Notes under the pieces: generated by a model
What the model was told of the DNA's origin: nothing
The model's database searches: none
The model's input: only the letters and a program-made list of their open reading frames with translations
Translations under genes and position numbers: made by a program
In this document: positions 5,852-33,682 of the stretch, one piece after another
Layout of the letters: each line of letters starts with the position of its first letter
How positions within the stretch are numbered: the first letter of the stretch is position 1
Virus record (IMG/VR): IMGVR_UViG_3300038548_000690
Span: 1-35,463 of that record
Origin: a virus
Length of the DNA: 35,463 bases
Strand: one strand, 5' to 3'

Positions 5852-5875
5852 GACTGGCCGCTATCTTTATTTTTC

Positions 5876-5949
5876 GGGCGATGAGGCATACTGGTAATGC
5901 GCTGTAGATCAACAGAGATCGGGGGGTTCGATTCCCTCCCCTTCCACCA
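5876..5949 (+). tRNA. tRNA-like element (intact 3' half, degenerate 5' half)
   Basis: The 3' part is textbook. T-stem GGGGG (5922-5926) pairs with CCCTC (5934-5938) around the loop TTCGATT, then CCCTTCC, a discriminator A and an encoded CCA (5947-5949). A D-arm-like GCA...TGC with CTGGTAA lies at about 5886-5900, and the total length (74) is right. The acceptor 5' strand pairs poorly and no good anticodon loop can be drawn. This could be a decayed tRNA gene, or an attachment-site core copied from a host tRNA 3' end. Confidence 0.3.
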
Positions 5950-5969
5950 CATTACATCCCTGACGGTGA

Positions 5970-5993
5970 GGCTTCGGTCTTGCCCGAGGGGCC
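5970..5993 (+). other. GC-rich hairpin downstream of tRNA-like element
   Basis: CTTCGG (5972-5977) pairs with CCGAGG (5984-5989) around a six-base loop, and flanking GG/CC bases can extend it. There is no T-run, so it is not a typical terminator. It may help process the tRNA-like transcript or fold the leader of the next gene. Confidence 0.3.
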
Positions 5994-6270: not shown

Positions 6271-6358
6271 GCATGGATAACTCAAGCGGTATCGTAGTCC
6301 GTAGAGGTAGAGACGGTTAATGGCCGTGATGTGGGTTCGATTCCCACTCCAAGCCCCA
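6271..6358 (+). tRNA. tRNA-like element with long central region
   Basis: GCATGGA (6271-6277) pairs with TCCAAGC (6348-6354) at six of seven positions. It is followed by T8-A9, and the element ends in C plus an encoded CCA (6356-6358). The T-arm is perfect: GTGGG, loop TTCGATT, CCCAC. A stem-loop ACGG-TTAATGG-CCGT (6313-6327) could be an anticodon arm. The D-arm is poor and the element is about 12 bases longer than a class I tRNA, so it is either an odd class II-like tRNA, a pseudogene, or an att-type relic. Confidence 0.35.
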
Positions 6359-28612: not shown

Positions 28613-29257
28613 TTATGTCGTACTGAGCAATTTGGTGAATATATAATCTACAGAGATTCCTTCTGTAAGATGTCCCCGAATGACCTCTTCAGTCGTATTG
28701 TATTTTTTCGCCCAATCGGGAATAGAAAGAAGTCTGCCTTCAAATTCAAGGTGTTTATATCTTCCTTGATACCCTCTGTTCGCCACTTGCTGGCTAGGTG
28801 TTGCCCAACGACAATTCTCTTTACAGTAGCCTTTGTAATTGTTAATACGGTCAATCGAATGCTTTGCGGTGGGGCGATCTCCCATGTCTTCGAGAAAGTT
28901 TTCAAACTTAAGCCAACGATCATCTTCAATCTTTATGCCTCGACCTCCATATTTAGGATAGGCAGTATTTTTATTATTGTTACATCTTTGAATCATTTGA
29001 CGCCATACACTATAAATTGGATCTCTAGATCTGCCGTGTTTGGTCAATCTCTTAACCAGATTCTCAGCCTGAAGACAACCACAGCTTTTACTTTGACCGT
29101 TCCTCAAAACTCCTTGGCCAACTCTTTTTTCCGTTCCACACTCGCAAACACAGATCCAAAATTTATTATGGTATTTATTGGCACCCCAGTACTCTTTTAC
29201 CGTCCATCTTCCAAAAATTTCACCAATCACAATAAGCCTCCCTTGAGCAGTTTTCAT
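28613..29257 (-). CDS. HNH homing-type endonuclease
   Basis: The only minus-strand gene within the late operon. ATG at 29257 gives about 214 residues, and an in-frame GTG at 29284 would add nine. The layout is typical. An N-terminal region with CVCECG and KSCGCLQ makes a small zinc-type site. It is followed by HGRSRDPIYSVWRQMIQRCN, YGGRGIKIEDDRW, then HSIDRINNYKGYCKENCRWAT, the His-Asp-Asn core of this HNH group. A C-terminal DNA-binding segment, LLSIPDWAKKYNTTEEVIRG, resembles NUMOD/IENR-type helices. It fills the gap between two tail-tip genes, as expected for a selfish mobile gene. Confidence 0.8.
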   Translation of the reverse strand: MKTAQGRLIVIGEIFGRWTVKEYWGANKYHNKFWICVCECGTEKRVGQGVLRNGQSKSCGCLQAENLVKRLTKHGRSRDPIYSVWRQMIQRCNNNKNTAYPKYGGRGIKIEDDRWLKFENFLEDMGDRPTAKHSIDRINNYKGYCKENCRWATPSQQVANRGYQGRYKHLEFEGRLLSIPDWAKKYNTTEEVIRGHLTEGISVDYIFTKLLSTT

Positions 29258-29286
29258 ATAAGTTATTATAGAGAAAGGGGCCACTA

Positions 29287-31602: not shown

Positions 31603-31896
31603 TTCTTATAAACCTCTCTTAAAGAACATAAGAGTCAAAATTCAATTTATCTAAAACTTACTTTTAAATATATAGCTCATAGCTCGGCGCTCGTATGCTT
31701 CGTCGCTCCCCACTCCCATGTGGAATATATTGTCAAACGATAAATTTCTTGTCAATTGTGGTAATCACTAACTTAATCATTTTTGTAAAAATTAGTGCTG
31801 GCTAACTTATTAAGTTAATACGCACTAACTTTAGTAGATTTTAAATAAAGTCATAAATTACTTGAATTAAATTAAAGCTTCAGTCATACTTATTTC
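31603..31896. promoter_or_regulatory. Divergent AT-rich control region
   Basis: No gene is seen here. It holds TTGTCAA repeats (31730-31736, 31749-31755) and CACTAACTT repeats (31766-31774, 31823-31831), with a further CTAACTT at 31802-31808. It also holds a perfect palindrome TAACTTA-T-TAAGTTA (31803-31817). A short GC-rich patch (about 31685-31715) interrupts the AT-rich sequence. It must contain the promoter for the minus-strand pair and the rightward promoter at 31862. Confidence 0.6.
31862..31890 (+). promoter_or_regulatory. Rightward promoter of the structured leader
   Basis: TTGAAT (31862-31867), 17-base spacer, CATACT (31885-31890), each four of six to consensus. The expected start, six or seven bases on, is about G31897, which is exactly where the leader's first helix begins. 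Confidence 0.5.
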
Positions 31897-31998
31897 GTGA
31901 TGCAGATGAAAACAACCAATAAATATTTGAAACTTTAGGCTTGAGCCGTTAACTCTGGTATTCGTACCGGTCTGCATCACAGCGCGGCTCAAGTCTAA
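31897..31998 (+). ncRNA. Structured leader RNA with pseudoknot or switch topology
   Basis: Three helices are visible. A: GTGATGCAGA (31897-31906) with TCTGCATCAC (31971-31980), 10 bp. B: TTAGGCTTGAGCCG (31935-31948) with CGGCTCAAGTCTAA (31985-31998), 14 bp with one G-U. C: CTGGTA-TTCG-TACCGG (31955-31970), a six-pair stem with a UUCG tetraloop, abutting A'. The order A, B, C, A', B' makes A and B cross, so they form an H-type pseudoknot or two competing states. Four bases between A' and B' are tight for crossing a full 10-bp helix, which favours competition. B is followed by TTTT (31999-32002), so it may act as a weak terminator. The next ribosome site is at 32005. No known riboswitch class is recognised. 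Confidence 0.6.
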
Positions 31999-32017
31999 TT
32001 TTATGGAAGGCGATTCT

Positions 32018-32401
32018 ATGGATGAACGATTTTTATTTAGAGCTTGGGATAAAGTAAATAAAAAAATGGTCTATGATTTTTGGGATACGCCATATTATAA
32101 ACATCGTGTTATTTGCCACTTTCTTATCATTGATTGCATGCAATCTACAGGGATAAAAGATAAAGATGGAAAAGAAGATGACCAGCTTTGCTATGAAGGT
32201 GATTTAATAACAGGCCACAGAACTTATCATCATGGCCGAGGAACAGAATGTTTTAAGAATTCCCAAGTCATTTTTAAAGACGGTTCATTCAAAGTGAAAC
32301 CTGTGAATTATGAATACTACGTTCATTTGAGTGATATTGATTTTGAAATCGCTGGAAATATACATGAAAACTCAAATTTACTAGAGGTAAAAAATGGGTG
32401 A
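32018..32401 (+). CDS. YopX-like protein
   Basis: ATG 32018 is preferred over 32003: GGAAGG (32005-32010) gives proper spacing, and the protein then begins MDERFLFRAWDKVNKKM, the normal YopX opening (F-R-A-W-D). Further YopX features are STGIKDKDGKE, CYEGDLITGH, VIFKDGSFKV and the ending FEIAGNIHENSNLL. YopX is a widespread phage protein of unknown function. The structured leader lies immediately upstream and probably governs this gene. A second, divergent copy is at 33212. Confidence 0.8.
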   Translation: MDERFLFRAWDKVNKKMVYDFWDTPYYKHRVICHFLIIDCMQSTGIKDKDGKEDDQLCYEGDLITGHRTYHHGRGTECFKNSQVIFKDGSFKVKPVNYEYYVHLSDIDFEIAGNIHENSNLLEVKNG

Positions 32402-32838: not shown

Positions 32839-33215
32839 AAACCGAATACCGCCAATGGATAAATGAAAACGTCAAAGAAGCTTATGGAAAATGTGTAGAG
32901 ACTACCTTGGCCATGACAAAAGCGTTTCCTGAGTTGATCCGAGTACGTGGACATTATCAATGCCCTTTAGATGGTAAACGGCCTCATTGGTGGCTGAAAA
33001 CGTCTGATGGCGGCATTGTAGACCCAACGGCATCCCAATTTTCCAGTGGAGGCGTTATGGGCGAGTACGAAGGGTGGGTCGAGGGATCGCCGGAGCCAAC
33101 AGGGAAATGTATGAACTGCGGTGGGTACTGTTACAACAATTCAAATTTTTGTACTCAAAAGTGTTTGAATTCGCTGTCAGATGCAAACGGATGGGAAAGG
33201 TGTTTATTGAAATGA
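32835..33215 (+). CDS. Hypothetical protein with C-terminal Cys motif (126 aa)
   Basis: ATG 32835 overlaps the previous stop (ATGA). The body holds VRGHYQCPLDGKRPHWWL, then DGGIVDPTASQF and a YEGW segment. This G-H-Y/H-W-W/D-P-T-x2-Q-F pattern recurs in phage proteins of unknown role and has His, Asp and Cys residues that could form an active site. The C-terminal CMNCGGYCYNNSNFCTQKC looks metal-binding. It is coupled to the second YopX-like gene by ATGA. Confidence 0.6.
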   Translation: MKTEYRQWINENVKEAYGKCVETTLAMTKAFPELIRVRGHYQCPLDGKRPHWWLKTSDGGIVDPTASQFSSGGVMGEYEGWVEGSPEPTGKCMNCGGYCYNNSNFCTQKCLNSLSDANGWERCLLK

Positions 33216-33682
33216 ATGATAGATTTAAGTTTAGATATGTCTGGAAACACAAAGACACAGGAGAGATCAAATTTGTCATTCATGACTTACAAACCATAGA
33301 ATCAACAAATCCTGTGCTCGGCCTTCAAATGGAGGGGTGGAGATTGATAAGCCGTGACTTCTCAACCGGCCTAAAATCCAACAGTGATAAGCTGATCTTT
33401 GAGAGGGATTTTGTTGATTTTACTTACTGGTGGTTTGATGGAAACGAAGCGGAAAGTCATCTTCAAGGCGAAATAGTTTATTTAGAAAACCTCATGTCAT
33501 TCGGCCTTAAGCACGTTAAAAATTCAGATTGGTGTAAACACACTGGCGCAGATAGAGAAGTGGGAGACACAGACGCATTTGGAGTATGGACGTTTGATGA
33601 GGCTGATTTTGAAATTATTGGAAACAGTCACAAAAACCCAGAATTATTAAACGATCAGAACGGGAAAAGGATTGAGAAGTGA
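33212..33682 (+). CDS. Second YopX-like protein (156 aa)
   Basis: ATG 33212 overlaps the upstream stop (ATGA), so the longer frame from 33074 is rejected. It opens MNDRFKFRYVWKHKDTGEIK, a variant of the YopX start, and ends FDEADFEIIGNSHKNPELL, parallel to the first copy's FEIAGNIHENSNLL. The middle differs considerably, so the two are old paralogs or independently acquired. Role unknown. Confidence 0.65.
   Translation: MNDRFKFRYVWKHKDTGEIKFVIHDLQTIESTNPVLGLQMEGWRLISRDFSTGLKSNSDKLIFERDFVDFTYWWFDGNEAESHLQGEIVYLENLMSFGLKHVKNSDWCKHTGADREVGDTDAFGVWTFDEADFEIIGNSHKNPELLNDQNGKRIEK

Follow-up and report, generated by a model that had tools for sequence, protein, structure and literature searches.

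A candidate pseudoknot leader RNA at a predicted transcription start in a virus contig and leaders of the same shape in related and isolated phages

The DNA analysed here, called the window below, is a virus contig of 35,463 bases without close relatives among isolated phages. A leader with three helices precedes a YopX-family gene in it, and its features are collected in Table 1. Helices A and B cross, which is the arrangement of an H-type pseudoknot, and hairpin C lies within loop L2. All three were re-found where an earlier note on this DNA had placed them, B with one G-U pair and C with one U-G. It also holds, as that note had claimed, that hairpin C (ending at 31970) abuts A' (beginning at 31971), and that B' is followed by TTTT and then by the ribosome site. 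The UUCG loop is not of the extra-stable cUUCGg type because its closing pair is A-U. The ATG at 32018 is the likely start codon of the YopX gene; a longer frame is open from the ATG at 32003. A second YopX-like frame in the same operon (33074-33682) matches Pfam PF09643 at 24.1 bits.

Table 1. Predicted features of the leader in the window, the related contigs, and the other leaders assigned to the same family.
Feature	Position or record	Strand	Remarks
Predicted sigma-70-type promoter	31862..31890	+	-35 TTGAAT 31862-31867, 17-nt spacer, -10 CATACT 31885-31890; 8/12 match
Helix A, 5' arm	31897..31906	+	10/10 bp with A', 100% complementary; first base is the predicted +1
Loop L1	31907..31934	+	A-rich, 28 nt; AATATTT in common with G004 leader L027:14104
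Helix B, 5' arm	31935..31948	+	pairs with 31985-31998
Hairpin C (CUGGUA-UUCG-UACCGG), within L2, adjoins A'	31955..31970	+	read from sequence
Parts of hairpin C	CUGGUA 31955-31960, UUCG 31961-31964, UACCGG 31965-31970	+	six pairs, one U-G
Helix A, 3' arm (A')	31971..31980	+	complementarity to 31897-31906
Linker L3 (AGCG)	31981..31984	+	4 nt between A' and B'; read from sequence
Helix B, 3' arm (B')	31985..31998	+	13 Watson-Crick + 1 G-U (14th pair), 93% Watson-Crick
U-tract (TTTT) 3' of B'	31999..32002	+	terminator-like or U-rich ribosome standby
Shine-Dalgarno-like GGAAGG	32005..32010	+	7 nt before ATG 32018
YopX-family gene	32018..32401	+	Pfam PF09643 49.1 bits, E 7e-13; PHROG 98
Related contig G001	IMGVR 3300023222_000219		
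Related contig G002	IMGVR 3300022707_001484		
Related contig G003	IMGVR 3300009788_000227		
Related contig G004	IMGVR 3300023223_000955		
Member, window	31897	+	score 59.5
Member, G004	L027:14104		score 51.5
Member, G004	L027:6326		score 49.0, first scan only
Member, G002	L033:6225		score 50.5
Member, G002	L034:1404		score 44.5
Member, G001	L029:240		score 49.5
Member, G001	L029:17040		score 48.5
Member, G003	L026 5458	minus	score 37.5
Isolate member	Marinomonas P12026		before HNH endonuclease gene; descriptor scan
Isolate member	Oceanospirillum GJ44		before antirepressor gene; descriptor scan
Isolate member	Idiomarinaceae 1N2-2		before HNH endonuclease gene; through BLAST

Several other features of the window were observed. 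Repeats in both orientations (GCTAACTTA/TAAGTTA and TTAGTGC/GCACTAA) at 31766-31832, between a divergent gene block and the leader promoter, look like repressor operators. A tRNA-like gene at 6271-6355 (Rfam tRNA 24.6 bits, cut-off 29; its G004 homolog 35.9) was missed by ARAGORN, and so was another stretch at 5922-5982, which has a T-arm and CCA. An HNH endonuclease-like ORF on the minus strand (28613-29284) fills a gap between structural genes in the rightward late gene block and is probably a recent insertion.

Neither helix A nor helix B is notable alone, since single helices arise in dinucleotide shuffles of the window at rates of 4.1 (A-like) and 0.83 (B-like) per 35 kb. A crossing combination of the two is seen a single time in the window and not at all in 12 shuffles. 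On the promoter-anchored descriptor the window scores 59.5, and the best score in 1.15 Mb of shuffled DNA is 43.5. The putative promoter itself, at 8/12, is below the 9/12 cut of our promoter scan and is absent from the list of that scan; alone it is weak and would not convince.

We searched for further leaders in four related contigs, which were reached via terminase and tail proteins, by scanning their DNA with two descriptors. The first is anchored on the ribosome binding site (RBS) and looks for crossing helices with T-rich sequence and then a ribosome site behind them, with no promoter term; the second looks for a crossing pair just after a promoter and asks for neither U-tract nor ribosome site. 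The two agree on the top distinct loci. Seven more leaders with crossing A and B were found, giving eight members in five related records with the window included, and G001, G002 and G004 have two members each, ahead of different genes. All seven start 4-7 nt after a -10 box and end in a T-rich tract, a ribosome site and a start codon. The G003 member scores lower because of a bulge in its helix B, which the descriptor cannot bridge; it occupies the same orthologous locus as three other members, behind a conserved 170-aa gene, and the fold is present in all four relatives carrying that gene. Between G003 and G004a the downstream gene is kept (81% identity over 54 aa) and the stems are unrelated. 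The leader is not specific to YopX, which is the second gene behind one other member, as the remaining members precede unrelated genes; the downstream genes across members are YopX, HNH endonuclease, antirepressor and unknowns.

The start-at-A rule, which the earlier note had drawn from the window promoter, extends to the whole group. Each of the eight group members has a predicted promoter that matches at 8/12 or better, with the -10 box ending 4-7 nt upstream of helix A. Shuffled upstream sequence gives such a promoter in 4.8% of cases, and the other registers of the same regions do so in 6.0%. The first descriptor used no promoters, and hence the register is independent support for a start at A. 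Judged from these sequences, the anchoring of the predicted pseudoknot leaders to promoters is well supported. The first nucleotides of the transcript, whose pairing marks a 5'-terminal stabiliser, are predicted to be paired in all eight.

Three of the seven isolated phages scanned have an intergenic member (P12026, GJ44 and 1N2-2), with the start predicted ~5 nt upstream of helix A in P12026 and GJ44, which would leave a short 5' overhang. The hosts of the three are gammaproteobacteria, and most bacteria of this class rely on RNase E and RppH. No such candidate was found between promoter and gene in Pseudoalteromonas Pq0 and H105/1, Vibrio LP.2 or the first 45 kb of Thermus P23-45. Placement between a promoter and a gene is essential to the call because the RBS-anchored descriptor also gives false matches of similar scores inside genes. 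A BLAST search of phage records with the window leader gave only fragments, mostly of the coding part, scans of genome contigs gave no relatives, and the YopX relatives L002 and L003 have no leader of this kind.

Some candidates were rejected. The exact A-arm pattern has five matches in viral contigs, which are unrelated on inspection; an inverted repeat of ~25 bp with GTGATGCAGACG at L007:2710-2830 shares the window A arm by chance. L027:13911-14020, just upstream of the G004 leader, has a crossing pair (12 + 13 bp) and then TTTG, but no promoter or ribosome site; the GGCCGCTATC upstream of it is common to the window at 5852 and G003. The leader of an SbcC-like operon in G001 and G002 (L009:5174-5420 and L011:14268-14470, z -6.1 and -3.9) is strongly structured but nested, and unrelated in sequence. 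In this leader TAGTTGATA occurs at the possible +1 and again before the ribosome site, both copies are complementary to the intervening TATCAACTA, and all three segments change together in L011 (U-A to C-G), so a three-way switch is possible.

The members have a common anatomy. Helix A is 10-12 bp long in the related group; it has 8 bp in GJ44, and in P12026 and 1N2-2 it consists of 7 bp with a bulged extension. It is followed by an A-rich L1 of 15-29 nt and by helix B of 7-15 bp, with an internal bulge in some members. L2 covers ~7-27 nt; the window, G004a and 1N2-2 have a hairpin in it. The gap between A' and B' (L3) is 0-4 nt in 10 of the 11 members after extension of imperfect helices, and ~11 nt in GJ44 as paired. 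In the ten members tabulated, at least four of the 8 nt 3' of B' are T, and the ribosome site and start codon come next. Short frames starting at +1 to +4 were seen at 31900-31938 in the window, L029:240-290 and L033:6226-6273 (MQMKTTNKYLKL, MNLHNNQLKKLYLTLS and MKPLNYLQKLYLARS, each followed by a stop), and an in-frame gap leaves the start, frame and stop of the latter two intact. We rejected leader-peptide attenuation because such frames occur in G001a, G002a and the window only and are absent from the other group members.

The compensating changes in A/A' and B/B' that the earlier note had proposed to look for were seen in two pairs of leaders, each compared in a two-sequence alignment. The orthologous leaders G001a and G002a, which have the same promoter and loops, hold 26 pairs with 98% of the cells paired, and differ by five two-sided compensatory changes, three in A and two in B; there are none when the partners are slid by 1-3 columns. 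The leaders of P12026 and 1N2-2 are 74% identical over 119 nt and all 20 core pairs are intact in both leaders; this count excludes the outer part of A, which pairs anew around a bulge of another size. They show two two-sided changes, one per helix, for which the shuffling control is not significant (110/500). The stems of the other members share almost no sequence, and ~99% of their pairs hold against 38% in a control mispaired across members (0.99 vs 0.38), a contrast that is partly circular as members were selected by complementarity. Taken together, the predicted structure is well supported, and evolution appears to keep the shape and not the sequence of the leader stems.

None of the Rfam 15 covariance models matches the window at its gathering score, in agreement with the earlier statement that the leader does not match a known riboswitch or ribozyme. 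At lax thresholds, two sub-threshold matches around the leader were obtained, which are chance, and only tRNAs were found in the relatives searched. The conserved ligand-binding nucleotides expected of a riboswitch are absent, with no invariant loop position common to the members. Literature searches of partial coverage did not find a described family of such leaders, and we do not claim membership in an existing RNA family.

The earlier note had also read the leader as a switch, in which the early helix A holds back the terminator-like helix B. The order is consistent with our folding: when the RNA is cut after A', helix A is part of the minimum-energy fold in all eight group members (10/10 pairs in the window, to 31980), while in seven of the eight the full-length leader, folded with nested pairs only, goes over to B, suggesting A first and B second. 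In the window this nested-only fold (z -2.5) keeps B and C and drops A, as is expected when pseudoknots are outside what the program can draw. The switch itself has only partial support, since A' (31971-31980) and B' (31985-31998) share no bases and the two helices can coexist, which sets them apart from a classical terminator/antiterminator pair. With A' and B' non-overlapping and 0-4 nt apart, a stack of A and B end to end would be the natural end state.

The leader is probably the 5' UTR of an operon in this phage and belongs to a family of 5'-terminal pseudoknots whose predicted structure and anchoring to promoters are well supported by the sequence comparisons. Given this anchoring and how little sequence is conserved, a 5' plug is the reading we prefer, although we hold it tentatively and at somewhat less than an even chance: the leader may be a sequence-independent stabiliser of phage mRNA that shields its 5' end. 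A mechanical role is favoured because the members share almost no sequence. Helix A would form once A' is made and B would then zip on, and by geometry the two may make a ~25-bp coaxial stack with A'-B' as a near-continuous strand. The 5' base of the mRNA would be buried at the junction inside this stack, paired and not usable by RppH or the RNase E 5' sensor, and only the U-tract and the ribosome site would be left single-stranded. RppH and RNase E depend on a single-stranded 5' end, and structure at that end stabilises mRNA (PMC3997798). Against the 5' plug, an ordinary hairpin at the 5' end would be enough to hide it, so that the model does not need the crossing topology; end protection leaves the conserved, terminator-like U-tract after B' unexplained; and the ~5-nt overhang predicted in P12026 and GJ44 speaks against it.

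Known leader systems are similar in part. The put RNA of phage HK022 is a cis-acting leader RNA near early promoters, consists of two simple adjacent hairpins with conserved bases, and makes RNA polymerase termination-resistant; the present family is likewise compared as cis-acting phage leader RNA, but has crossing helices without conserved bases. Intrinsic-terminator attenuators also have a leader stem with a U-tract and an earlier helix that forms first, whereas A' and B' here have no shared strand and no alternative antiterminator pairing was found. The nearest phage precedent is the gene 32 leader of T4, T2 and RB69, a pseudoknot with coaxially stacked helices upstream of an A+U-rich ribosome site (PMC3014915). 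Both are pseudoknots in a phage leader upstream of the ribosome site. However, the T4 gene 32 pseudoknot is a specific gp32 site ~67 nt before the start codon and precedes its single-stranded-DNA-binding protein gene, which is not what lies downstream of our members; the present fold is larger, starts at +1 and recurs before different genes with almost no sequence common to its copies. The translation-repressing hairpins of the stand-alone homing endonuclease genes Aeh1 mobE and T4 segB sequester the ribosome site (PMC3014915). They are similar in that HNH endonuclease genes follow the P12026 and 1N2-2 members, but the fold described here does not include the ribosome site, and the genes behind the other members are different. 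If the plug model holds, the nearest systems by function would be 5'-terminal stabilising stem-loops of the ompA 5' UTR type, which likewise are extreme 5' structures placed to block 5'-end-dependent decay (PMC3997798). The present family differs in that its structure is a pseudoknot rather than a hairpin, the 5' base would lie within a coaxial stack, and a U-tract borders the fold on its 3' side.

The main rival of the 5' plug is an attenuator, and it stays a strong one because the plug does not explain the U-tract directly after B'. Helix B with its U-tract would be an intrinsic terminator. Whether B forms in time would depend on helix A, which is made earlier and would act either by itself or with a stabilising factor from the phage or the host, so that premature termination at ~+85 to +105 switches the operon. 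We regard this as possible, though on balance unlikely. The U-rich tract recurs although the promoter-anchored scan (six loci) did not ask for it, an A-rich stretch precedes helix B, which has 7-15 bp, and the folding order described above also fits. On the other hand, the non-overlapping A' and B' give none of the mutually exclusive pairings of known attenuators, some members have a weak U-tract (TTATTTAC, TTTTATGG), and no leader peptide, ligand pocket or conserved loop is common to the members. A protein operator, acting on translation or antitermination, might instead be bound by a phage protein (as in T4 gene 32, or as a put-like RNA acting on RNA polymerase) and be shared by several operons of one phage. 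The two members each in G001, G002 and G004, before different genes, look like a regulon, and a phage pseudoknot ahead of a ribosome site is known from the T4 gene 32 leader (PMC3014915); yet almost no sequence is common to the members even within one genome, which leaves only shape to be read, and we consider such an operator improbable.

We give still less weight to an insulator or standby for the ribosome site, in which the pseudoknot would keep upstream sequence off, offer a U-rich S1-binding landing strip and raise translation. In members with a clear start codon the fold does end ~15-25 nt upstream of it, but a structure starting exactly at +1, and not merely at a fixed distance, is left unexplained. 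Inverted repeats acting at the DNA level (operators or recombination sites), or chance, are very unlikely to account for the family. Single helices are expected at about this rate in 35 kb, and the operator-like repeats at 31766-31832 lie just upstream; against this stand the compensatory changes and the fixed place between promoter and ribosome site. The non-Watson-Crick stem cells point the same way, 22 being G-U on the transcribed strand and one other, in a test biased by a descriptor that tolerates G-U.

The 5' plug and the terminator-like stem could also be coupled. We speculate that a pseudoknot at +1 might trap the 5' end in a coaxial stack and thereby serve as a shape-only RNA cap, an exchangeable start module of which one genome has several, for early or accessory operons, with the shape being either recognised or protective; we would sooner doubt than assert this. 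Sequence-based RNA searches miss families whose stems diverge so fast, and it was shape together with promoter position that found these leaders. As P12026, 1N2-2 and GJ44 have cultured hosts, both the plug and the attenuator models are directly testable. If the attenuator is true, the leader would be a pseudoknot-gated terminator without the usual shared strand. If the 5' plug is true, phages would protect their early mRNAs from host decay using a shape-only, exchangeable module, which may be of use as a portable mRNA stabiliser.
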